Below, piece by piece: positions 268 to 37,010 of a stretch of 37,010 nt of DNA (within the stretch, counting starts at the first letter, position 1; each line of letters starts with the position of its first letter). The notes beneath the pieces were generated by a model. The model was not told the origin of the DNA, did no database searches, and saw nothing but the letters and a program-made list of their open reading frames with translations. This DNA is from Blattabacterium cuenoti (GTDB lineage Bacteria; Bacteroidota; Bacteroidia; Flavobacteriales; Blattabacteriaceae): the NCBI RefSeq assembly GCF_014252295.1, contig NZ_CP059215.1, forward strand, positions 352,501-389,510, given 5' to 3'. Made by a program: the position numbers and the translations under genes.

Positions 268-1809
<1,542 letters not shown>

Positions 1810-1863
1810 AAAAATTAATGTCAAAGACACGAAAAACTTGTTAAAAATTCCACGATATTAAGT

Positions 1864-1874
1864 CTAGAAGCTTT
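1864..1874 (-). other. 5' arm of 16S precursor processing stem
   Basis: CTAGAAGCTTT pairs perfectly with AAAGCTTCTAG at 224-234, enclosing the whole of 16S. A second copy of this arm lies at 3865-3875 in the duplication, where it has no partner. Confidence 0.65.
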
Positions 1875-1876
1875 TT

Positions 1877-1887
1877 TATGCAAAGAA
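1877..1887 (-). promoter_or_regulatory. boxA-like antitermination site, 16S leader
   Basis: This is the leader copy of the 11-base direct repeat also present at 240-250, lying just outside the 16S processing stem. A second TCTTTGACATT motif on the minus strand (plus 1817-1830, reading GTGTCTTTGACATT) sits just before mature 16S and is closer to the Bacteroidetes form. Both are candidates only. Confidence 0.45.
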
Positions 1888-1913
1888 CAATAAAATAAAT
1901 TATTCCAAAAATG

Positions 1914-1921
1914 CAATTATA
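1914..1921 (-). promoter_or_regulatory. possible rRNA promoter -7 element
   Basis: Minus-strand TATAATTG is one mismatch from the Bacteroidetes -7 consensus TAnnTTTG and lies about 105 bases upstream of mature 16S, in the gap shared with divergent queA. A TTTG lies upstream, but the spacing of about 14 bases is short for the family, so the call is weak. The same sequence recurs at 3915-3922. Confidence 0.3.
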
Positions 1922-2012
1922 CGTTTTTTTTCTTACAAAAAAAGTTTTTATTGAAAAAAAATAACCTAATTTTATATGAAAATAGTGTACAAAAGCGTAA
2001 AATTCACAATTC

Positions 2013-3056
2013 ATGAGAACTTCAGATTTTGATTTCGTATCTCCTTCAGATCTTCTAGCAAAATTTCCTTCTCAAGAAAGGGACGAATCCAAATTAATGG
2101 TTATTCACAGAAAAAACAAAAAAATCGAACATAAATTTTTTAAAGACTTATACCAGTATTTTGAAGAAGGAGATACTTTTATTTTAAATAACACTAAAGT
2201 TTTTCCTGCAAGACTATTTGGTAATAAAGAAAAAACAGATGCTAAAATAGAAGTTTTTCTACTTCGAGAATTAGACCAAAAAGATAGAACTTGGGATGTT
2301 TTAGTTGATCCTGCAAGAAAAGTAAGAGTAGGAAATAAACTAAATTTTGGACATGGACTAACAGGAGAAGTCATAGATAACACAACTTCTAGAGGAAGGA
2401 TTTTACAACTTCATTTTAATGGAGACCACAAAGAGCTTATAAGAAAAATAAAAGAATTAGGAAAAACTCCACTTCCGAAATATATTAATAGACAACCAGA
2501 AAAAAATGATGAAAAACGTTATCAAACTATATATGCAAAAGAAGAAGGATCTGTAGCAGCACCAACTGCGGGATTACATTTTTCAAAACACTTATTAAAA
2601 AAATTGGAAATAAAAGGAATAAATTTAGTGGAAATAACTTTACACTTAGGATTAGGAAGTTTTTTCCCAGTAGAAGTAGAAGACATATCAAAACATAAAA
2701 TGGATTCTGAAAAATGTTTTATAAATGAAGAAACATGTCAAATTATAAATCATGCTATGAAAAAAAAAAAACGGATTTGTTCTGTAGGAACTTCTTCCAT
2801 GAGAGCAATAGAAAGTTCTGTTTCTTCTAATAAAAATTTAAATCCTTTTTTCGGATGGACTAATAAATTTATTTTTCCTCCATATAATTTTAACATAGCT
2901 AATTCCATGATTACAAATTTTCACATGCCAAAATCAACATTACTTATGATGACAGCAGCCTTTACAGGTTTTGAATTACTTATGAAAGCATATCAAATAG
3001 CAATTCAAAAAAAATATAGATTTTATTCTTATGGAGATGCTATGTTAATTTTATAA
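2013..3056 (+). CDS. queA: tRNA S-adenosylmethionine:ribosyltransferase-isomerase QueA, copy 1
   Basis: QueA moves the ribosyl part of S-adenosylmethionine onto preQ1 in tRNA, giving epoxyqueuosine at the wobble base of GUN anticodons. The protein has 347 residues, normal for the family. Clear family blocks are [10 protein letters not shown] (59-68), [11 protein letters not shown] (180-190), [13 protein letters not shown] (208-220), [11 protein letters not shown] (257-267) and [12 protein letters not shown] (302-313). The ATG at 2013 lies divergent from 16S with no clear ribosome-binding site. A run of 12 A at 2760-2771 (residues about 250-253) is prone to slippage. This copy is followed by only 9 bases of the next gene and then by a 16S fragment on the opposite strand, so it may be an assembly duplicate of the gene at 4014. 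Confidence 0.95.
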
Positions 3057-3091
3057 AATGATCAAAAAATTTCATTAATGAAATTATGAAA

Positions 3092-3810
<719 letters not shown>

Positions 3811-4013
3811 AAAAATTAATGTCAAAGACACGAAAAACTTGTTAAAAATTCCACGATATTAAGTCTAGAAGCTTTTTTATGCAAAGAACAATAAAATAAA
3901 TTATTCCAAAAATGCAATTATACGTTTTTTTTCTTACAAAAAAAGTTTTTATTGAAAAAAAATAACCTAATTTTATATGAAAATAGTGTACAAAAGCGTA
4001 AAATTCACAATTC

Positions 4014-5057
4014 ATGAGAACTTCAGATTTTGATTTCGTATCTCCTTCAGATCTTCTAGCAAAATTTCCTTCTCAAGAAAGGGACGAATCCAAATTAATG
4101 GTTATTCACAGAAAAAACAAAAAAATCGAACATAAATTTTTTAAAGACTTATACCAGTATTTTGAAGAAGGAGATACTTTTATTTTAAATAACACTAAAG
4201 TTTTTCCTGCAAGACTATTTGGTAATAAAGAAAAAACAGATGCTAAAATAGAAGTTTTTCTACTTCGAGAATTAGACCAAAAAGATAGAACTTGGGATGT
4301 TTTAGTTGATCCTGCAAGAAAAGTAAGAGTAGGAAATAAACTAAATTTTGGACATGGACTAACAGGAGAAGTCATAGATAACACAACTTCTAGAGGAAGG
4401 ATTTTACAACTTCATTTTAATGGAGACCACAAAGAGCTTATAAGAAAAATAAAAGAATTAGGAAAAACTCCACTTCCGAAATATATTAATAGACAACCAG
4501 AAAAAAATGATGAAAAACGTTATCAAACTATATATGCAAAAGAAGAAGGATCTGTAGCAGCACCAACTGCGGGATTACATTTTTCAAAACACTTATTAAA
4601 AAAATTGGAAATAAAAGGAATAAATTTAGTGGAAATAACTTTACACTTAGGATTAGGAAGTTTTTTCCCAGTAGAAGTAGAAGACATATCAAAACATAAA
4701 ATGGATTCTGAAAAATGTTTTATAAATGAAGAAACATGTCAAATTATAAATCATGCTATGAAAAAAAAAAAACGGATTTGTTCTGTAGGAACTTCTTCCA
4801 TGAGAGCAATAGAAAGTTCTGTTTCTTCTAATAAAAATTTAAATCCTTTTTTCGGATGGACTAATAAATTTATTTTTCCTCCATATAATTTTAACATAGC
4901 TAATTCCATGATTACAAATTTTCACATGCCAAAATCAACATTACTTATGATGACAGCAGCCTTTACAGGTTTTGAATTACTTATGAAAGCATATCAAATA
5001 GCAATTCAAAAAAAATATAGATTTTATTCTTATGGAGATGCTATGTTAATTTTATAA
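4014..5057 (+). CDS. queA: tRNA S-adenosylmethionine:ribosyltransferase-isomerase QueA, copy 2
   Basis: This gene encodes the same 347-residue protein as the gene at 2013, with the same 12-A run at 4761-4772. It lies in the native downstream setting: 29 bases separate its stop from the prenyl synthase ATG at 5087, and topA follows. If only one copy exists in the genome, it has this right-hand context and the left-hand context of copy 1. With two identical copies no change in function is expected beyond dosage, because the upstream region is copied as well. Confidence 0.96.
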
Positions 5058-5086
5058 AATGATCAAAAAATTTCATTAATGAAATT

Positions 5087-6064
5087 ATGAAAATCATCTT
5101 AGAAAAAGTAAAAATACCCATAAAAAAAGAAATTAAAGAATTTGAAAAACAATTTTTTAACCTAATTAAAAGCAATATTTTTCTTATAAATAAAATTACT
5201 CATTATATTATTCATAGAAAAGGAAAATTAATTCGTCCTATATTTGTTTTTCTAATAGCAAAAATGTTAGGAAATATACAGAAAAAAACATATCATACAG
5301 CTTGTTTAATAGAATTAATACATACAGCTACACTTGTTCATGATGATGTCATAGATAATAGTTCTCTTCGTCGTGGATCACTTTCCATAAATGCTATATG
5401 GAAAAATAAAATAGCCGTGTTAATAGGAGATTATTTACTTTCGAAAAGTCTTTTATTAGCTACAAATAACAATTATCAAGATCTCCTAAAAATAATTTGT
5501 AAAACTATTAAAAACATGAGTAAAGGAGAATTATTACAAATGGAAAAATCTAAAAGCATAGATATTACCGAAAAAATTTATAATCAAATTATTTATTATA
5601 AAACAGCAAGTTTAATCGCTGCTTCTTGTGAATGTGGAGCTCGTTCAGTTAATACTGATGAAAAAACAGCATTAAAAATGAGAAAATTTGGAATTTTTAC
5701 TGGTATAGCTTTCCAAATAAAAGATGATTTATTTGATTATGAAGAAAAAAACAATAATTTTACAGGAAAACCTATAGGAATTGATATAAAAGAAGGAAAA
5801 ATAACACTTCCACTCATTTATACAATTCAAAATGCTTCTAAAAAGGATCAAGAATGGATATTAAATTCCATAAAAAATTATGACGAAGAAAAAAGATATC
5901 AAATAATTGATTATGTAAAAAAATATGGAGGATTAAAATATGCTACTAAAAAAATGATAGAATTTCGTAACAGTGCATTAAAGATTTTAGAACTTTACCC
6001 AGAAGGGTCTATTAAAAATGCATTAAAAATAATGGTAAATTTCATCGTTGAAAGAAATCGATAA
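5087..6064 (+). CDS. long-chain all-trans polyprenyl diphosphate synthase
   Basis: Head-to-tail prenyltransferase that extends farnesyl-type primers with isopentenyl diphosphate. The 325-residue protein has both Asp-rich motifs: first DDVID (86-90) with RRG close behind (95-97), and second DDLFD (213-217) after KTASL (172-176). The residue five before the first motif is Ala81; small residues there allow long products, so it resembles the octaprenyl/heptaprenyl type (IspB-like) and not short-chain FPP synthase. With a men cluster in the same window, the likely product is the menaquinone side chain. It follows queA by 29 bases and precedes topA by 10, suggesting one transcription unit. The exact chain length cannot be read from sequence. 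Confidence 0.9.
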   Translation: MKIILEKVKIPIKKEIKEFEKQFFNLIKSNIFLINKITHYIIHRKGKLIRPIFVFLIAKMLGNIQKKTYHTACLIELIHTATLVHDDVIDNSSLRRGSLSINAIWKNKIAVLIGDYLLSKSLLLATNNNYQDLLKIICKTIKNMSKGELLQMEKSKSIDITEKIYNQIIYYKTASLIAASCECGARSVNTDEKTALKMRKFGIFTGIAFQIKDDLFDYEEKNNNFTGKPIGIDIKEGKITLPLIYTIQNASKKDQEWILNSIKNYDEEKRYQIIDYVKKYGGLKYATKKMIEFRNSALKILELYPEGSIKNALKIMVNFIVERNR

Positions 6065-6074
6065 AACCTTTTTA

Positions 6075-8177
6075 ATGAGAGAAAATTTAGTTATTGTAGA
6101 ATCTCCAACAAAGGCATGTACCATTCAAATGTTTTTGGGAGAAAATTATTATGTAGTATCTAGTTATGGACATATTATAGATCTTCCAGAAAAAGAAATA
6201 GGAGTTAAAATAAAAGAAAACTTCGAACCTAATTATGTCGTTTTATCCAAAAAAAAAAAAATAGTTCAGAATTTAAAAGAATTAATAAAAAACTATAAAA
6301 TTATATGGCTTGCTTCTGATGAAGATCGTGAAGGTGAAGCTATTGCTTACCAAATTTATAAGACTTTTAACATACCAGAAAAAAAATATAGAAGAATAGT
6401 TTTTCACGAAATTACAAGAAAAGCAATTTTATATGCTATAAAAAACCCTAGATCTATTAATTATAATTTAGTTTACGCTCAACAAGCAAGACGAATTTTA
6501 GACAGACTAGTAGGATTTAAATTGTCTCCTGTTTTATGGAAAAAAATAAAAAGAGGATTATCTGCAGGTAGAGTTCAATCTGCTGCGGTTAAACTTATAG
6601 TAGAACGTGAGAAAAAAATACAAAAATTTATTCCTTCATTGGATTATCAAATATATGGATTTTTCGAAAATGAGGAAAAAACAGTTTTCAAAGCAAAATT
6701 AGAGAAAAAAATTAAAGATAAAGATAAAACAAAAAACATTTTATCGTTATGTATTGATAGTATATTTATAGTAAATAAGATTGATATCAAATACGAAAAA
6801 AAAAGTCCTCCACCACCATTTACAACATCTTCTTTGCAACAAGAAGCTTGTAAGAAATTAAATTTTTCCATATCAAAAACCATGTTTTTGGCTCAAAAAT
6901 TATATGAAAAAGGATTCATTACGTATATACGGACAGATAGCACAATCTTATCAAAGGATATTTTATCAGAAATAAAAAACTATATACTTTCTTCGTATGG
7001 AGAAAAATATTTATCTGTAAAAGAATTTTCTAAAAGAAAAAAATTTTCTCAAGAAGCACACGAATCTATTCATCCTACTATTATTAAAAATGTGAATGAA
7101 AATTATTTAGAATCTTTAGATATTTTTCAAAAACAACTTTATCAACTTATATGGGAACGTACTATTATGGGACAAATGATAGGTTCTACTATTGAAAATA
7201 AATATTTTTATATTAAATCTTCTAATTTTAATGATTTTTTTATATATATAAAAAAAACCATTTTATTTGACGGATTTTTAAAAATTGCAAACAAGAATAA
7301 AAAAGAAAAGTCTTCTATTTTAGAAATGAAAAAAGGATCTATCCTTAATAGAAAGGATATTTTAGCTAAGCAAATTTTTTCGACTAAAATACATAGATAT
7401 AATGAGGCTTCTTTAGTAAATAACTTAGAAAAGTTAGGAATAGGGAGACCATCAACTTATGTTCCTATTATATCTACTATTCAAAAAAGAAATTATGTAA
7501 ACATACAAAAAATTACGAAAAAAACAGAAACAAGAAAAAATTTTCTTTTAAAAGAAAACTCTCTTCTTGAAGAAGAAGAAATAATTACTGAATTTGAGAA
7601 AAATAAATTATTTCCTACAGAAATAGGAGTATTAACTACTCATTTTCTAAAAAAAAATTTCGGAGAAATAGTAGATTACGATTTTACAGCAAATTTAGAA
7701 AAAAGTTTTGATGATATAGCTAATGGAAAAGAATCATGGATTAAAATCGTTAAAAATTTTTATAATAAATTCCATCAAAAAATACAATATGTGAAAGAAC
7801 ATGTAGATAAAATTAAAAAAGAATATTTTCTTGGAATTGATCCTAAATCTAAAAAAAAAATTTTCGCAAAAATTGCTCGTTTTGGAGCAATTATTCAACT
7901 GGGAGAATTTAAAGGAAAAGATAAACCTAAATTTTCTCCTTTATTAAATAGTCAAAAAATAAATACCATTTCACTTACAGAAGCTTTAAAAATTCTTGAA
8001 TTACCAAAATCCTTAGGTTTTTTTGAGAAAGAAGAAGTACTCTTAAAAATAAACAAATACAATATTTATTTAAAATATAAAAATCAATTTATTCCAATTG
8101 AAGAAAATATGTTCTTTAACTCATCTAAGTTAGAATTAGAACAAGCTATTGACATAATTAAAAATAAAAATAACTAA
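6075..8177 (+). CDS. topA: DNA topoisomerase I (type IA)
   Basis: Relaxes negative supercoils by single-strand passage. I take the ATG at 6075 (700 residues); an in-frame TTG at 6048 would overlap the previous gene. The TOPRIM domain starts at once, with the catalytic Glu in VESPTKA (Glu9) and DEDREGE (82-88). LSAGRVQSAAVKLIVERE (162-179) and the active-site Tyr284 in TYIRTDS follow. The C-terminal region has partial repeats of the type found in Bacteroidetes TopA, but no CxxC pairs, so the zinc ribbons of the E. coli enzyme are absent. The protein is shorter than free-living relatives, as expected in a reduced genome. A run of 13 A lies at 6249-6261, early enough that slippage would truncate the product. 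Confidence 0.96.
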   Translation: MRENLVIVESPTKACTIQMFLGENYYVVSSYGHIIDLPEKEIGVKIKENFEPNYVVLSKKKKIVQNLKELIKNYKIIWLASDEDREGEAIAYQIYKTFNIPEKKYRRIVFHEITRKAILYAIKNPRSINYNLVYAQQARRILDRLVGFKLSPVLWKKIKRGLSAGRVQSAAVKLIVEREKKIQKFIPSLDYQIYGFFENEEKTVFKAKLEKKIKDKDKTKNILSLCIDSIFIVNKIDIKYEKKSPPPPFTTSSLQQEACKKLNFSISKTMFLAQKLYEKGFITYIRTDSTILSKDILSEIKNYILSSYGEKYLSVKEFSKRKKFSQEAHESIHPTIIKNVNENYLESLDIFQKQLYQLIWERTIMGQMIGSTIENKYFYIKSSNFNDFFIYIKKTILFDGFLKIANKNKKEKSSILEMKKGSILNRKDILAKQIFSTKIHRYNEASLVNNLEKLGIGRPSTYVPIISTIQKRNYVNIQKITKKTETRKNFLLKENSLLEEEEIITEFEKNKLFPTEIGVLTTHFLKKNFGEIVDYDFTANLEKSFDDIANGKESWIKIVKNFYNKFHQKIQYVKEHVDKIKKEYFLGIDPKSKKKIFAKIARFGAIIQLGEFKGKDKPKFSPLLNSQKINTISLTEALKILELPKSLGFFEKEEVLLKINKYNIYLKYKNQFIPIEENMFFNSSKLELEQAIDIIKNKNN

Positions 8178-20104: not shown

Positions 20105-20593
20105 TTATTCTTCTATTCTTACAGAAGAAGGAACAAACATAGTATAATCTCCACCATTTTTCATAATATCTCTTACAAGATAAGAACAAATATGAGACTT
20201 ATCATAAGAAGAAATAAAATAAACAGTTTCAATAAAATTTTTTTTATTTAATTTATTATTAGTGAATAATATATTTTTTTCGAATTCAAAATCAAATTGA
20301 TTTCTAATACCTCTTAACAAAAATTTTGCTTTTTTTTTTCTGCAAAAAGAAATAACTAATCCATTAAATGAATCTATTTCTATTTTATGTTTGTAAATGA
20401 AGTCAACAAAAGTTTTTCTAATCCATTCTTTTCTTTTTTGAAGAGAAAACATATTTTTTTTTCTAAAATTTTTTCCAACAGCTATGATAATTTTATCAAA
20501 CAAATTCAAAGATCTAATAACAATATCGAAATGTCCTAAAGTAATGGGATCAAAAGATCCAGGAAATACAGCTATTTTTTCGTTTTTATTCAT
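20105..20593 (-). CDS. coaD: phosphopantetheine adenylyltransferase
   Basis: Adenylates 4'-phosphopantetheine to dephospho-CoA, the step before last of coenzyme A synthesis. The 162-residue protein has the nucleotidyltransferase signature AVFPGSFDPITLGH (8-21, with the TxGH motif at 18-21), LRGIRNQFDFEFE and a closing SYLVRDIMKNGGD block where the family has SSxxVRE. Length is typical. It is convergent with rnr. Confidence 0.95.
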   Translation of the reverse strand: MNKNEKIAVFPGSFDPITLGHFDIVIRSLNLFDKIIIAVGKNFRKKNMFSLQKRKEWIRKTFVDFIYKHKIEIDSFNGLVISFCRKKKAKFLLRGIRNQFDFEFEKNILFTNNKLNKKNFIETVYFISSYDKSHICSYLVRDIMKNGGDYTMFVPSSVRIEE

Positions 20594-29129: not shown

Positions 29130-30251
29130 TCATTTCTTTTGTTTTTCTATGATTACATTATTTTTAATAAGTTCCTTCATTATAGCTTTTCTATTAAATT
29201 TTCCGAGTGAGTTCTCTATAAAATGAGGAACGAAAAAAATATCTTTTGGTTTATAAAATTTATTTTTTCCACTAAAAATAATGTTTGAAAGTTCAAATTG
29301 AAAAGGATCTCCTTCAATAATTAATACTATCCTTTCTCCAAAAATTTTATCTGGAATAGAAGATATAAAAAATCGTTTGTAAATAGGAATAAAAGAACTT
29401 ATATTCCTCTCTATCAATTCAGGAATAATTTTAATTCCTCCGCTATTAATAACATTATCATATCTTCCGATCCAATAAAATTTATCACTTTCTTTCATAG
29501 ATACAATATCATTTGTCTGTATTGAATAATTTATACAAGATGAAGAAAATATCTTCAAACAATCTCTTTTATCTACACTTAAATGAATATCATGAAATGA
29601 TTTATAAAATATAGATTTATTTAATCCATTGATTTTTCTTATAGCTATATGTCCTAAAGTTTCTGTCATTCCGTAAGTAGAATAACAAACAGTTGCAATA
29701 TTTTTCAATTTTTTCTCCAAAATATTGGAAATAGAAGCCCCTCCTATCAATAAAATTTTAATATACTTTAAATATTGAAAGCTATAAAAGACTTGCATAG
29801 GAACCATTGATGCAATGTCAAAAAATTTTTTAACATTTTTTAATGGGTTAGATGATGGTTCTACACAATAAATTTTCCATTTAAAAATAATAGCACGAAC
29901 TAAAAACATTCTAGCAGCTATAAAATCTGTAGAAAGACATAAAAAACCTTTTAATCCTTTTTCTCTTAAATTCAAGAATTCTACTGTTTTTATTGCTCTT
30001 TCAAACATATATTTTTTTTTCAAAAAAATTTTTTTAGGAACACCTGTCGTTCCAGAAGTATATATGGTTACCAAGGATTCGTTATCAAACCAATTTCTTA
30101 AAAAAGAGAAAATAGAATTCTTCCAATAAAAATTTTTATTTTCCTTACTAAGGGAATCATAAGAATCATTCAGTGTTTTTTTAGAAGAAAAATCTATCCA
30201 CATTTTTTTATTATTAAAATATCTTAATATTTGAAATGAAATATGGATCAT
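29130..30251 (-). CDS. menE: o-succinylbenzoate-CoA ligase
   Basis: Activates o-succinylbenzoate as its CoA ester in menaquinone synthesis. The 373-residue adenylate-forming enzyme has the phosphate loop TIYTSGTTGVPKK (62-74), TYGMTETLGH, the hinge WIGRYDNVINSGG and a C-terminal SLGKFNRKA with the catalytic Lys. It is short for the superfamily, as flavobacterial MenE proteins are. The start is uncertain: ATG at 30251 overlaps the end of menC by 38 bases, while ATG at 30203 (residue 17) would leave a 10-base gap. It is the last gene of the men operon. Confidence 0.93.
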   Translation of the reverse strand: MIHISFQILRYFNNKKMWIDFSSKKTLNDSYDSLSKENKNFYWKNSIFSFLRNWFDNESLVTIYTSGTTGVPKKIFLKKKYMFERAIKTVEFLNLREKGLKGFLCLSTDFIAARMFLVRAIIFKWKIYCVEPSSNPLKNVKKFFDIASMVPMQVFYSFQYLKYIKILLIGGASISNILEKKLKNIATVCYSTYGMTETLGHIAIRKINGLNKSIFYKSFHDIHLSVDKRDCLKIFSSSCINYSIQTNDIVSMKESDKFYWIGRYDNVINSGGIKIIPELIERNISSFIPIYKRFFISSIPDKIFGERIVLIIEGDPFQFELSNIIFSGKNKFYKPKDIFFVPHFIENSLGKFNRKAIMKELIKNNVIIEKQKK

Positions 30252-31300
30252 ACCAAACAGAACCTTTTTTAACTTTTAAAGGGGAATTCCAATTATTGAT
30301 ATATAAATCTCCTGTATTCAATCCATGAACAATCTCATTTTTACATCCATATTTTTGTTCCATCATAAAAGTCCATTGAGTAATAGCATTCAATCCGATA
30401 TTACTTTCCAAAGAAGAACTAACCCACCATTTTATTTTTCTTTTATTAGCTTCTAATATCCATTCTCTAGATCCAGAAAATCCTCTATTTAAGCTAGGTT
30501 TCAAAACTATATATTTTGGATAAATAATATTTAATAATTTTTTTTTATCTTTCAACTTATTAATTCCATATAATTCTTCATCTAATGCAATGGGAATTTT
30601 TGATTCCTTACATATTCTTGACATTTCTTTCCAGTTCCCAGATGGGATAGGTTGTTCCACTGAATCAATGATATTTAAATCATAAAGTTTATTTAAACAA
30701 TATAAGGCTTTTTTAGTATTTTTGAAACAACCATTTGCATCTATGCGTATTCTTACAAATGGATATTTTTTTTGAATATTTTTTAATATTAAATATTGAT
30801 AATCAAAAAGATTAGAACTAATTTTCATTTTTATAAAAGAATATCCTTCAAAAAATTTTTCCTCTATTTTTTTTATTATATTGTTTTTCTTTTTGTTTTT
30901 GAAAAAATCCAACCATATTAAATCATTTATAAAAATACCTTTTTTACCATGAGTGAATTCAGAATCATATAATATATGAAATTTGTTTTTTAAACCTAAA
31001 AAAGCCTGCTCTAATCCAAAAAAAATAGACGAATATGAAATATATTTATTGTAATAACATATTTTTGTCTTTTTTAAAGAAATTACTTTTTTTAAACAAT
31101 CTTTTAATTCCATTTTAAATTTGTCAAGATTATTTAAAATGAATTTATCCAAAATTGGATTACATTCTCCTATCCCTACTTTATTATTTTTTTCCAAAAT
31201 AATAAACCAAACAGTATTGTGATGAAATATTTTATTAGAATTAGATATTCTTTTTCTAAAAAAAAACTTTTTTTTTTAGAAAAAAATTTAATTTTTCCAT
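30214..31300 (-). pseudogene. menC: o-succinylbenzoate synthase, 5' end frameshifted
   Basis: Dehydratase of the enolase superfamily that makes o-succinylbenzoate. The catalytic set is intact (numbered from 31197): Lys123/Lys125 in FIKMKIS, metal ligands Asp153 (RIDANG), Glu181 (SVEQP) and Asp206 (ALDEE), and Lys233 (VLKPS). The only start in this frame is a TTG at 31197, which would cut off the N-terminus. The frame stays open upstream to 31278 and encodes NTVWFIILEKNNKVGIGEC, a match to the family N-terminus. The expected start, ATG at 31300 (MEKLNFFLKKKVFF), is in another frame. Removing one base in the A10/T9 run at 31258-31277 joins them into about 361 residues, normal for the family. 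Sequencing error, slippage rescue or true decay are all possible. Confidence 0.8.
31251..31284 (-). repeat. 16-bp A/T inverted repeat inside menC 5' coding region
   Basis: TTTTTCTAAAAAAAAA (31251-31266) and TTTTTTTTTAGAAAAA (31269-31284) are perfect complements separated by 2 bases. The repeat includes the A9 and T10 runs (plus strand) at which the menC frames part. Although it looks like a terminator, it lies within coding sequence. Confidence 0.85.
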
Positions 31301-31329
31301 AATTTCATTTTTTAGTTCTAAAAACAGAC

Positions 31330-32028
31330 CTAAACATATATAGATTCCCCCATTTTTAATAAAATCAGTTCTTTTCCTTTTTCAGAAAACTTTTTTTTAG
31401 ATTCGTTTTTATCTATTTTAATTTCCTCAAAAGTATCATAATGGACCCCTAATATTCTTTTACACTTTAAAAAATCTGATGCAAGAATAGCTTCCTCTAC
31501 ATCCATTGTATATCTCCCTCCTATCGGTAAAATAGAAATTTTTAATGATCCAAAAATAGGAATAATCTTCATTTCATTCATTAATGATGTATCACCTGAT
31601 ATATACAAATTTCCTTTATTTGTATGTAATAAAAATCCTCCAGGGTTTCCTCCATAAGTTCCATCGGAAAAAACACTGGAATGAGCAGAAAAAACATATT
31701 TTAATTTTCCGAAAGGAAAAGAAATGAAAGATCCATAATTCATTCCATATGTCTTTATTCCTCTTTTTTCAAAATAATTAGAAATTTCATAATTAGATAT
31801 AACTAAAACATTACTGAATTTTTGTGAAAAAAATTCAACATCGCATACATGATCATAATGCGCATGAGTTAGCAATATATAATCTACTTTTTTTAAATAA
31901 AAATCAATACATTTTAAATAATTCCTATTATTGAAAAAAGGATTTCCAGAAAAAAAGGGATCTATCAATAAATTCTTTTCATTTACTTCTAACAAAAATG
32001 TATTATGAGTGAAAAAAGTTATTTTCAT
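31330..32028 (-). CDS. UPF0173-type metal-dependent hydrolase
   Basis: A 232-residue metallo-beta-lactamase-fold protein of the UPF0173 family. The metal-binding motif THAHYDH is at residues 54-60; GDTSLMNEM and the C-terminal GVHYDTFEE supply further ligands. The start MKITFFTHNTFLLEV is typical. The substrate is unknown. It sits between menA (4 bases upstream) and menC, and relatives occupy the same place in other Bacteroidetes men clusters as I recall. A thioesterase for 1,4-dihydroxy-2-naphthoyl-CoA is the step missing between MenB and MenA here, so that is a testable guess and no more. Confidence 0.88.
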   Translation of the reverse strand: MKITFFTHNTFLLEVNEKNLLIDPFFSGNPFFNNRNYLKCIDFYLKKVDYILLTHAHYDHVCDVEFFSQKFSNVLVISNYEISNYFEKRGIKTYGMNYGSFISFPFGKLKYVFSAHSSVFSDGTYGGNPGGFLLHTNKGNLYISGDTSLMNEMKIIPIFGSLKISILPIGGRYTMDVEEAILASDFLKCKRILGVHYDTFEEIKIDKNESKKKFSEKGKELILLKMGESIYV

Positions 32029-32032
32029 GTTT

Positions 32033-32941
32033 TTATAAATTACTAATTCCTATACTTAATCCATATAAAAGAATAATAAAAATTAATCTTTTTAACTCTA
32101 AATTGAATGATTTTTTTTCTTCTAAAAAAATGATTCTCTTAATATGAAAAATTAAAAAAATAACAACTAAAATAAAAGAAGCCCATTGGTACATATTACT
32201 TTTTTTATTAAAAAAAATAAAAATTCCTCCTGACAGAACTGCAATTAATATGGATATCGTATGATATAACTTTGCTTTTTTCATTCCTAACCATCCTGCC
32301 ATAGTATACTTTCCATTCTCATAATCATTATCCATATCTCTCATATTATTAATATTTAAAACAGCCACATTCAATAAACCTATAGATAATGACAATAAAA
32401 ACATATCTATCTGTAAACTATGTGTATATAAAAAATAACTTCCTCCAACTGAAAAAAAACCAAAAAAAATAAGAACAAAAAAATCTCCCATTCCTATTAC
32501 ATATCCATAAGGAGAAGGTCCAATAGAATATTTTATAGAACTATAAATGCAAAAAAAAATTATTGCAATACAAAACAAAAAGACAAAAATATTTTTATAC
32601 GAAATACTTTTATAAAGTAAATAAAATCCTGATAAAAAAGAAAATATAGAAAATAAAAAAATAGCTATTTTCATTTCTAAAAATGAAATAAAACCGCATT
32701 GAACTGTTCTTTTAGGACCTATTCTTTTAAAATTATCTACTCCTGTAACACTATCTCCATAATCATTTGAAATGTTAGCTAATATTTGCAATAATAAACC
32801 TGTAACAAGACATAAAATATATGTAGAAAACTTCACATTTTCCATTCTAGACTTAGATATAAAAAAACTTAAAGTTATTCCAGAAAAGGATAAGGGCAAA
32901 GTATGAAAACGAAATGCATCAATCCAATATTTTAATTTCAT
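32033..32941 (-). CDS. menA: 1,4-dihydroxy-2-naphthoate polyprenyltransferase
   Basis: Membrane enzyme of the UbiA family that attaches the polyprenyl chain to dihydroxynaphthoate, giving demethylmenaquinone. The 302-residue protein has about eight hydrophobic segments and both Asp-rich motifs: [12 protein letters not shown] (59-70) and [12 protein letters not shown] (200-211). The start ATG overlaps the menB stop by 4 bases, a sign of translational coupling. The prenyl donor is probably made by the synthase at 5087. Confidence 0.95.
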
Positions 32942-33762
32942 AAAAATTTTTTAAATTTTTTAAAATTAGGGTCTCTTTTTTCTAAAAAAGCTTTTTTTCC
33001 TTCCTGAGATTCTTCCATTAAATAAAACATCAAAGTAGCATCTCCAGCTAATTGCATTAATCCATGTTGCCCATCTAATTCTGCATTTAAACATCGTTTT
33101 ATCATTCTTAAAGACATTGAACTTTTTTTCTGTATTATTTTACACCATTCTATAGTCTTTTCTTCTAACTTTTCTATACTTACAACTTTATTGATCAATC
33201 CCATTTCTAATGCTTCTCTTGCTGTATATTTTTTACATAAAAACCACATTTCTCTTGTTTTTTTCTGACCAATATGACGAGCTAAATAAGAACATCCAAA
33301 ACCTCCATCAAAAGAACCTACTTTTGGCCCTACTTGACTAAAAATGGCATTTTCAGATGCAATAGTTAAATCACAAACTACATGTAAAACATGGCCTCCT
33401 CCTACAGCATAACCATTAACCATAGCTATAACAGGTTTAGGTATTTCTCTTATTTTTTTATAAAAATCTAATATATTCAATCTTGGAATACCATCTTTTC
33501 CTAAATAACCTCCTAATCCTCTTGTTTTTTGATCCCCTCCGGAGCAAAAAGATTTTCTTCCAGATCCAGTTATTATCAAAACATCTATATCCATTCTACT
33601 TTTACATATATCCACAGCATCCATCATTTCATTAACCGTTTCTACACGAAACGCATTGTGACACCATGGTCTATTGATTTCTATTTTAGAAATACCTTTC
33701 CAGAATAAAAACAAAATATCTTTATATTTTTTGACTGGAATCCATTCTACGGTAGAATTCAT
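32938..33762 (-). CDS. menB: 1,4-dihydroxy-2-naphthoyl-CoA synthase
   Basis: Crotonase-fold enzyme that closes the naphthoate ring of o-succinylbenzoyl-CoA. I choose the ATG at 33762 ([13 protein letters not shown], 274 residues); an in-frame start at 33804 would add 14 hydrophobic, unmatched residues. SGGDQKTRG, the oxyanion block [11 protein letters not shown] and [14 protein letters not shown] are clear. The Gly in QVGPKVG is where bicarbonate-dependent MenB enzymes (E. coli type) have Gly and others have Asp, so bicarbonate dependence is likely. It is the first gene of the men operon; menF, menD and menH are not in the window. Confidence 0.95.
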
Positions 33763-33856
33763 AATGAAAAATAAATTAATGTTTATTTTTATTTTAATTT
33801 GCAAAGTAATAAAAAAAAGACTTTTATTTATTATTTATTATGTTATTTATTATTTA

Positions 33857-35551: not shown

Positions 35552-36850
35552 TTATTCTGTATTATTATTCCATATTGGATAATATGCATGTTTCCCTAAT
35601 TCTTCTTCAATACGTAACAATTGATTATATTTTGAAACTCTTTCAGAGCGACAAATAGAACCTGTTTTAATTTGTTCAATATTTAATGCAACAGTAAAAT
35701 CCGATATAAAGGAGTCTTCCGTTTCTCCAGAACGATGAGATATAATATTCCTGTACTTATTTTTTTTAGCTAAATTAATTGTTTCAATTGTTTCTGTTAA
35801 AGTTCCTACTTGATTTACTTTTATGAGAATAGAATTTGCTATTTTTTTTTCAATTCCCTCATTTAATTTACGAGTTTGAGTAACAAAAAGATCATCTCCT
35901 ACTAACTGAATATCAGTTCCTATTTCATCAGTTAATAATTTCCATCCATCCCAATCATTTTGATCCATTCCATCTTCAATAGATATAATTGGATACCTTT
36001 TAATTAAGTAAGATAAATAATTAACATGTTCTTCTTTAGATTTTTTTGAATTTCCTGTTTTATTATCAAATTTAGAATAGTCATAATATTTATAATCTTT
36101 ATTATAAAATTCAGAAGCTGCACAATCTATAGCTATTCCTATTTGATCATAAGGAACATAATTTGCCATATGGATAGCATCTAATATATGGTCTAAAACA
36201 TCTTCTATTCCATTAAAATTAGGAGAAAATCCACCTTCGTCACCAACACTTGTTGATAAACCTCTTTTTTGTAAAATATCTTTTAACTGATAAAAAACTT
36301 TATATCCCATTTGAAGAGATTCTAAAAAGGAATTAGCTTTAACTGGAATTATCATAAATTCTTGAAAGGTTATAGGAGCATTAGAATGCCTCCCTCCATT
36401 TACAATATTAATTAAAGGAATAGGAAGTGTATTTGCATAAATACCCCCTATATATTGACGAAGAGGTATTTTTAGTTCATTAGATGCGGCTTTTGCTACT
36501 GATAATGAAACAGCTAAAATAGCATTAGCTCCTAATCTTTTTTTATTAATTGTTCCATCTAATTCTAACATTAATTTATCAATATAAATTTGATCAAAAA
36601 TAGATTTTCCTATTAATTCAGGAGATATAATCTTATTCACATTGCAAACAGCTTTTAATACTCCTTTACCACAAAAAAAATCTTTTTCATTATCACGCAA
36701 TTCAAAAGCCTCATTTTCCCCTTTTGAAGCACCAGATGGAACGGATGAACGTCCTAAAATATTTTGTTCCGTTATTACATCCACTTCTATAGTGGGAGTT
36801 CCTCTTGAATCTAAGATCTGTCTAGCATGAATACTTTTAATTTTACTCAT
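35552..36850 (-). CDS. eno: enolase
   Basis: Converts 2-phosphoglycerate to phosphoenolpyruvate. Two ATGs are adjacent (36853 and 36850); the inner one gives 432 residues starting MSKIKSIHARQILDSRG, the usual form. SVPSGASKGENEAFEL, SIEDGMDQNDWDGW, GDDLFVTQTRKL, ILIKVNQVGTLTE and SHRSGETEDSFISD (about 371-384) contain the metal ligands and catalytic residues. The start region overlaps the stop of the upstream gene (TAA at 36843-36845), so translation is probably coupled to it. Confidence 0.97.
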   Translation of the reverse strand: MSKIKSIHARQILDSRGTPTIEVDVITEQNILGRSSVPSGASKGENEAFELRDNEKDFFCGKGVLKAVCNVNKIISPELIGKSIFDQIYIDKLMLELDGTINKKRLGANAILAVSLSVAKAASNELKIPLRQYIGGIYANTLPIPLINIVNGGRHSNAPITFQEFMIIPVKANSFLESLQMGYKVFYQLKDILQKRGLSTSVGDEGGFSPNFNGIEDVLDHILDAIHMANYVPYDQIGIAIDCAASEFYNKDYKYYDYSKFDNKTGNSKKSKEEHVNYLSYLIKRYPIISIEDGMDQNDWDGWKLLTDEIGTDIQLVGDDLFVTQTRKLNEGIEKKIANSILIKVNQVGTLTETIETINLAKKNKYRNIISHRSGETEDSFISDFTVALNIEQIKTGSICRSERVSKYNQLLRIEEELGKHAYYPIWNNNTE

Positions 36851-37010
36851 CATTCATTTTTTTTGTCTGTTTTTCTTCTACTACATCATTTATTTTTTTT
36901 GTCTGTTTTTCTTCTACTACATCATTCATTTTTTTTGTTTGTTTTTCTTCTACTACATCATTTATTTTTTTTGTCTGTTTTTCTTCTACTACATCATTCA
37001 TTTTTTTTGT
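36843..37010 (-). CDS. 3' end of upstream gene, 12-residue repeat tail (possibly ribosomal protein L17)
   Basis: The minus strand is open from the window edge to a TAA at 36843-36845 and encodes 55 residues. These are repeats of NDVVEEKQTKKM or NDVVEEKQTKKI, ending MNDE. The tail is highly charged and probably unstructured or coiled. The overlap with eno (8 bases from its inner ATG) shows the two are in one operon. In Bacteroidetes, eno often follows rplQ (with or without carA), and L17 in this phylum carries an acidic low-complexity C-terminal extension, so L17 is my best guess. The repeats alone do not identify the protein. Confidence 0.65.
   Translation of the reverse strand, partial: TKKMNDVVEEKQTKKINDVVEEKQTKKMNDVVEEKQTKKINDVVEEKQTKKMNDE
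36851..37010. repeat. 36-bp coding minisatellite with 72-bp higher order
   Basis: Four full 36-bp units start at 36851, 36887, 36923 and 36959, and a fifth at 36995 runs off the window. Units alternate between CATTCATT and CATTTATT at their start (Met-Asn or Ile-Asn codons), so the true period is 72 bp. Unit 3 alone has GTTTG for GTCTG. All lengths keep the reading frame. Confidence 0.96.

Follow-up and report, generated by a model that had tools for sequence, protein, structure and literature searches.

A recurrent reading-frame break in the poly(A/T) start region of menC in Blattabacterium, probably mended during transcription

In Blattabacterium, the cockroach symbiont, the vitamin K gene menC (o-succinylbenzoate synthase) is interrupted at the level of the chromosome: an indel inside a long A/T run, right behind the natural start codon, puts this codon out of frame with the body of the gene. 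The break is shared by related genomes and recurs across the genus, and the stretch upstream of the only usable in-frame start codon (a TTG) is constrained in the menC frame. We consider it probable that menC starts at the out-of-frame ATG at 31300 and that slippage of RNA polymerase restores the frame in a part of its transcripts. A gene kept in use, with its frame restored at the runs, as the original prediction had proposed, thus appears to be the best reading of the available sequences, given the constraint upstream of the TTG and an evolutionary rate similar to those of menA and menE. All positions refer to the window, i.e., the whole stretch of DNA analyzed here (37,010 nucleotides; G000:C1:352501-389510), which belongs to a genome of 624,952 bases assembled as a single contig.

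The menC locus and its interrupted frame

The menC frame (30214-31275, minus strand, as are all genes and codons of this locus given below) is open from the codon after an upstream in-frame stop (TAA, 31276-31278) to its own stop (30214-30216), and the TTG at 31195-31197 is its sole ATG, GTG or TTG start upstream of the conserved body. The expected ATG at 31300 lies in another frame (ORF 31256-31300) and reads MEKLNFFLKKKVFF across the runs before a stop at 31256-31258. Two candidate slippage sites are located there, an A10 run at 31268-31277 (T10 on the plus strand) and a T9 run at 31258-31266 (A9 on the plus strand), both of them within a perfect inverted repeat with 16-nt arms and a 2-nt spacer (31251-31284). 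In all these respects (open upstream frame, single usable start, natural ATG in another frame across A10/T9, 16-bp repeat) the locus is as originally described. The upstream neighbor, a PRK00685-type metal-dependent hydrolase gene (31330-32028), ends with its stop 29 nt before the menC ATG, and menA (32033-32941) and menB (32938-33804) are located nearby. A menE-like gene (29130-30251), for which the best models are menE models at scores below their cut-offs, overlaps the end of menC; the MenE step, next after MenC, is presumably EC 6.2.1.26. The 36 genus relatives listed have genomes of ~0.5-0.64 Mb, as compared with 1.5-5.4 Mb for genomes of other families in the same order (Flavobacteriales); the window's genome contains a urease alpha gene.

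By sequence family and by predicted fold, the product of this gene belongs to MenC. Its best NCBIfam matches are MenC models (below their equivalog cut-offs), PF13378 is found above cut-off, and the closest solved structure, by profile as well as by fold, is MenC of Desulfotalea psychrophila (PDB 2pge; 32% identity at the protein level), whose N-terminal stretch aligns with profile positions 3-68. A structure model, for which 27 of the 37 genus copies were aligned with six outgroup copies (33 sequences in total), has a mean pLDDT of 88.5 and places strands at residues 2-11 and 16-29, where residue 1 is the first codon after the upstream stop and the TTG is residue 27; a start at the TTG would delete the whole first strand and the larger part of the second. 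In the same alignment K149, K151, D179, E207, and D232 are invariant, and K259 is kept in at least 90% of the sequences, including that of the window. These six residues, which we take to be the catalytic positions of MenC, are all retained, in agreement with the original prediction.

We take the inverted repeat to be incidental, arising where Lys and Phe are encoded in AT-rich DNA. The window palindrome folds with a z-score of -2.9, and among nine relatives folded a similar behavior is seen in G021 (-2.2), G031 (-2.5), and the in-frame G018 (-3.3), while strong hairpins are lacking in G017 (0.1), G011 (0.0), G013 (-0.3), G029 (0.0), G026 (0.5), and G010 (-0.9). A role as a functional hairpin or terminator was considered and rejected, as the fold is not conserved among relatives and a search for a terminator-like site in 30900-31700 found none. 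The combination of a slippery site with a conserved stimulating structure, by which programmed ribosomal frameshifting is recognized, is likewise missing here.

Recurrence and direction of the breaks

The start region of menC was read in 37 genus copies (the window and 36 relatives). A full N-terminus with an in-frame ATG is present in 25 of them and a TTG at or beside the aligned start place in two more (G005 and G009), which answers the test suggested originally, i.e., whether relatives lack the N-terminal part as well: these copies have it. In another nine copies (the window, G017, G010, G011, G021, G031, G006, G002, and G028), an ATG in another frame is followed by the runs. The same kind of break, at the aligned place in nine of 37 genomes, is therefore not peculiar to the window's genome and amounts to more than chance. 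An A or T run of at least 10 occurs in the stretch from -100 to -45 in all nine shifted copies vs. eight of the 28 others (Fisher p=0.0002, for relatives that are not independent). A quick tree built from the two neighboring proteins, hydrolase and MenE (37 rows, SH-aLRT support only), unites the window, G017, G010, G011, and G021 in one clade (SH-aLRT 99), all five members of which carry the break. The nine shifted labels require five changes on this tree (four of them forced by starred branches; four in total without G006), each of which may be a gain or a reversion. In the menC copy of the smallest genome fetched (G025, locus L036; 511,065 bases), neither an in-frame ATG, GTG or TTG upstream of the body nor an other-frame ATG reaching the runs was found. 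A stop listed within the G019 match proved to be where that gene naturally ends.

According to the likeliest alignment, every shifted copy would be short of bases. When the bases between the ATG and a reference codon are counted, seven shifted copies are one base short and two (the window and G021) are two bases short, where "two short" could also be counted as "one too many." However, an aligned Leu/Ile/Phe codon is separated from the Phe-rich triplet by four residues (12 nt) in each of the 25 copies whose ATG is in frame vs. 10 nt in the window, and for this reason the window is read as two bases short rather than one too long. The proposal that a one-base deletion would join the two frames is thus formally true, but it is not the better account of how the window came to differ. 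The register varies even within the window's clade (G017, G010, and G011 one short; the window and G021 two short). For G031, which has several ATGs in two frames, the one at -110 was used. In G006 later indels intervene, and the first loss was judged against its sister G012; its menC contains three run indels, one of which is a secondary gain, the sole gain seen, and decay or misreading of this gene is possible. Further into the body of menC (a KKKLLD stretch near residue 217, numbered from the TTG), another A-run has lost one base in each of three genomes, G034, G015, and G008 (loci L031, L033, and L037, respectively).

Comparison of 29 genes in seven syntenic 38-kb blocks (the window and six relatives) revealed, besides menC, three genes broken at A-runs. 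The coaD gene (20105-20593 in the window, where its A10 run is in frame) is broken in G011, G031, and G013, in each case by one base missing relative to in-frame copies; in a set of 23 genus genomes without G031 it is split in two genomes (G011 and G013), and a single stop is listed for the coaD match of G015 as well as for that of G002. The topA gene (6048-8177) has an A13 run, in frame, in the window and A12, out of frame, in G010 and G013, and cysJ is broken in G010, again one base short vs. in-frame copies. The breaks concentrate at these three genes and menC, whereas runs of at least nine are crossed in frame 234 times in the seven blocks. Over the 37 genomes, menC shows 12 breaks vs. 79 in-frame crossings of such runs, as compared with 0 vs. 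68 for its two neighbors, the hydrolase gene and menE, combined (Fisher p=0.0013; 0.0026 when G006 is omitted; kinship makes these p-values optimistic).

Constraint is weaker on the four broken genes than on the remaining 25 (Mann-Whitney p=0.005). Over the seven genomes, pN/pS of menC is 0.48, the second highest of the 29 genes (cysJ 0.54, menA 0.44, menE 0.42). As the four are among the least constrained genes, the breaks appear to sit where a reduced dose is probably tolerated, a pattern that fits partial rescue and, equally, early decay.

Constraint upstream of the TTG and competing explanations

The 26 codons upstream of the TTG (31198-31275), which in the model hold strand 1 and most of strand 2, are conserved in the menC frame. 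Over six shifted genomes (the window, G017, G010, G011, G021, and G031; the distant G002 and G028 and the repeatedly broken G006 were left out), pN/pS of this stretch is 0.36 in the menC frame vs. 0.95 and 1.06 in the other two, the same constraint being expected if the runs were merely miscalled. The first nine codons, which include the runs, yield 0.30 in frame vs. 2.21 and 0.71, and the last seventeen 0.41 vs. 0.65 and 1.34; the body of menC in the same six genomes has a value of 0.49. The shifted copies are no less constrained than others, as shown by a value of 0.505 for the same 26 codons in nine unshifted genomes (one of them G005, with the TTG start). Within this stretch, third codon positions of eleven unshifted genomes vary no more than second positions do, which makes the comparison of frames a better test than counts by position. 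A TTG start, against which stand this frame-specific constraint and the loss of strand 1 and most of strand 2 from the model, is thus considered unlikely.

In G017, G010, and G011, the T-to-C changes (TTT to TTC) in three Phe codons all fall on third positions of the menC frame; for G017 and G010, a search for an in-frame ATG, GTG, TTG or ATN before these codons found none. Ribosomes therefore seem to be in frame already before the Phe codons of these two genomes, an indication that translation starts at the out-of-frame ATG. Some eight codons remain before the runs, and their conservation in four genomes (the window, G017, G010, and G021) is suggestive. As the stretch is very short, the ATG of G011 overlaps the gene ahead of it, and G031 has ATGs in two frames, we do not use this conservation as evidence.

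Under the slippage reading, the A/T runs coding for a Lys-Phe-rich N-terminus would have dropped two bases, leaving a chromosome that no longer holds a single frame. RNA polymerase would slip on the A10 and T9 runs, such that transcripts gaining two bases (or losing one) would encode full-length MenC and the remaining ones would yield a 14-residue peptide. We infer from the above evidence that two bases were lost rather than one gained, that the ATG at 31300 is used, and that the recoding is transcriptional slippage and not another kind. Several points speak against this reading. The window and G021 would need +2 or -1, where +1 suffices for the other shifted copies, and in E. coli reporters single-base deletion was seen at T8 but not on poly(A) (PMC6260861). 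No frame-restoring transcription error is reported for Buchnera (PMC5574713), the low constraint on the four broken genes would also fit a tolerated loss, and both G006, with its three indels, and G025, without a usable start, look like decay. A gap in the pathway, described below, also counts against it.

A first alternative, by which the genes are in frame and the assemblies read A/T runs one or two bases too short, is in our judgment unlikely. The primary breaks are indeed losses in runs of at least nine, i.e., the usual homopolymer sequencing error, G006 accumulates three run indels in one gene, and signs of purifying selection would be equally expected of a gene truly in frame; however, miscalls would hardly pile up at four genes when 234 long runs are crossed in frame, nor in menC as opposed to its neighbors (with the caveat of kinship on those p-values), and the break is carried by five of five members of the window's clade. 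Another improbable scenario places the start beyond the break, on a non-standard or newly arisen codon, with the first strand lost. Here, the ATA at 31246-31248 corresponds exactly to an in-frame ATG in G011 and G021, and the G011 leader differs from the others, its upstream ATG overlapping the preceding gene. Against such a start, AUA is a poor start codon, both the constraint and the third-position changes extend upstream of the ATA, and the first strand of the model would go; for G011 and G021 themselves it may nevertheless hold.

A shift made on the A-run by the ribosome instead of RNA polymerase would suit one-base-short copies such as G017, G010, and G011, since runs of the A AAA AAA type are classical -1 frameshift sites, but we find it very unlikely, given that the window and G021 need the other direction and that the hairpin is no stronger than shuffles in G017, G010, G011, and the in-frame G013, G029, and G026. 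Differences of register within a single clade could also mean that run length varies between chromosome copies of a symbiont population, part of which would then be in frame; we consider this extremely unlikely, and the assemblies searched show a single allele. Finally, menC may be dying under relaxed selection, with the frameshift as an early step of loss, as its rank in pN/pS among the 29 region genes and the run breaks in 12 of 37 genomes (plus one more without a usable start) might suggest. We regard this as quite unlikely in view of the conservation of the six catalytic-position residues, the persisting constraint on the 26 codons in six broken genomes, and the nearly equal rates of menA and menE, as well as of the menaquinone pathway being described, in PMC9603385, as dependent on Blattabacterium. 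The same paper lists EC 6.2.1.26 as a gap specific to Blattabacterium, so the pathway may be incomplete in parts of the genus.

Relation to known cases and wider meaning

RNA-polymerase slippage at menC would add one more case to a known kind, and would stand out by its recurrence, apparent one-sided direction, and drift of register. Frameshifted homopolymer genes of Buchnera and Blochmannia are reportedly rescued by transcriptional slippage (findings attributed to Tamas 2008 and Wernegreen 2010). The similarities with menC include an AT-rich obligate insect symbiont, a break at poly(A/T) in an otherwise intact gene, and its occurrence in relatives, whereas menC differs by belonging to another phylum, by a break right behind the start codon, by several changes at one place across the genus, and by a register that varies within a clade; moreover, slippage is reported as shown in those symbionts and is what we infer for menC. 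Programmed slippage or frameshifting is also used by dnaX and insertion sequences. These share with menC the A or T runs of at least nine as a slipping site (dnaX is mentioned in the review PMC5009743), but they give several products by design, unlike the restoration of a broken frame in menC, which has no conserved stimulating structure.

According to the same review, long poly(A) runs in the symbionts of aphids and of ants have 12-50% of their transcripts corrected, and a run of nine can receive as many as six additional bases (PMC5009743). Of the insertions made during transcription in Buchnera, 151 of 157 fall in homopolymers vs. 16 of 57 deletions (15, 21%, in the discussion), and that study reports no transcription error restoring a reading frame (PMC5574713). 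In a study with E. coli reporters, single-base deletion amounted to 10% at T8, and the poly(A) runs examined showed none (PMC6260861). Judged by these data, losses in DNA would be the class of change that insertions by the polymerase can mend. The losses-only pattern is thus suggestive in that it fits mending by the polymerase, while mutational bias and miscalls predict the same.

What the present analysis adds to the earlier reading is that the break is shared and recurrent, that it is apparently always a loss of bases, and that the palindrome is incidental. Among the matches listed in a literature search outside of which most subscription journals fall, none described frameshifted Blattabacterium genes by title or start of abstract, and none contained both Blattabacterium and menC. 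In Blochmannia vafer, eight genes have homopolymer frameshifts, some of them common to more than one species (PMC3017870), and Blochmannia annotators count such genes as intact (PMC4389277). In the case of menC, automatic annotation would probably either start the gene at the TTG, with two strands cut off, or call a pseudogene.

A more far-reaching idea, possible but doubtful at present, is that throughout the genus the chromosomal frame at long A/T runs is close to irrelevant, as RNA polymerase adds bases and the genes stay in use after losing one base or, in some cases, two. If so, only losses would survive because the polymerase supplies insertions, the tree would hold seven or eight changes of this kind for the two sites of menC, and slippage would serve to decode even coaD, required for coenzyme A synthesis, in three genomes. 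In any event, menC provides a natural experiment in which a single gene has lost its frame many times in parallel within one symbiont genus. These make it testable whether polymerase infidelity shields symbiont genes from decay, as well as which direction of indel survives, for how long, and in which genes.

Two repeat structures were noted elsewhere in the window. An exact tandem duplication of 2,004 bp (1091-5095, with copies at 1091-3094 and 3092-5095), through which 719 bp of the 16S rRNA gene and all of queA are present twice, is either a recent duplication or an assembly artefact; a second copy of this unit was not seen in those relatives whose fetched stretch reaches there (the G017 stretch does not and that of G010 does so partly), and the 16S gene of G013 was matched in two separate pieces. 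A tandem array of 36-bp units is located at 36812-36991, around and upstream of the start of the enolase gene.
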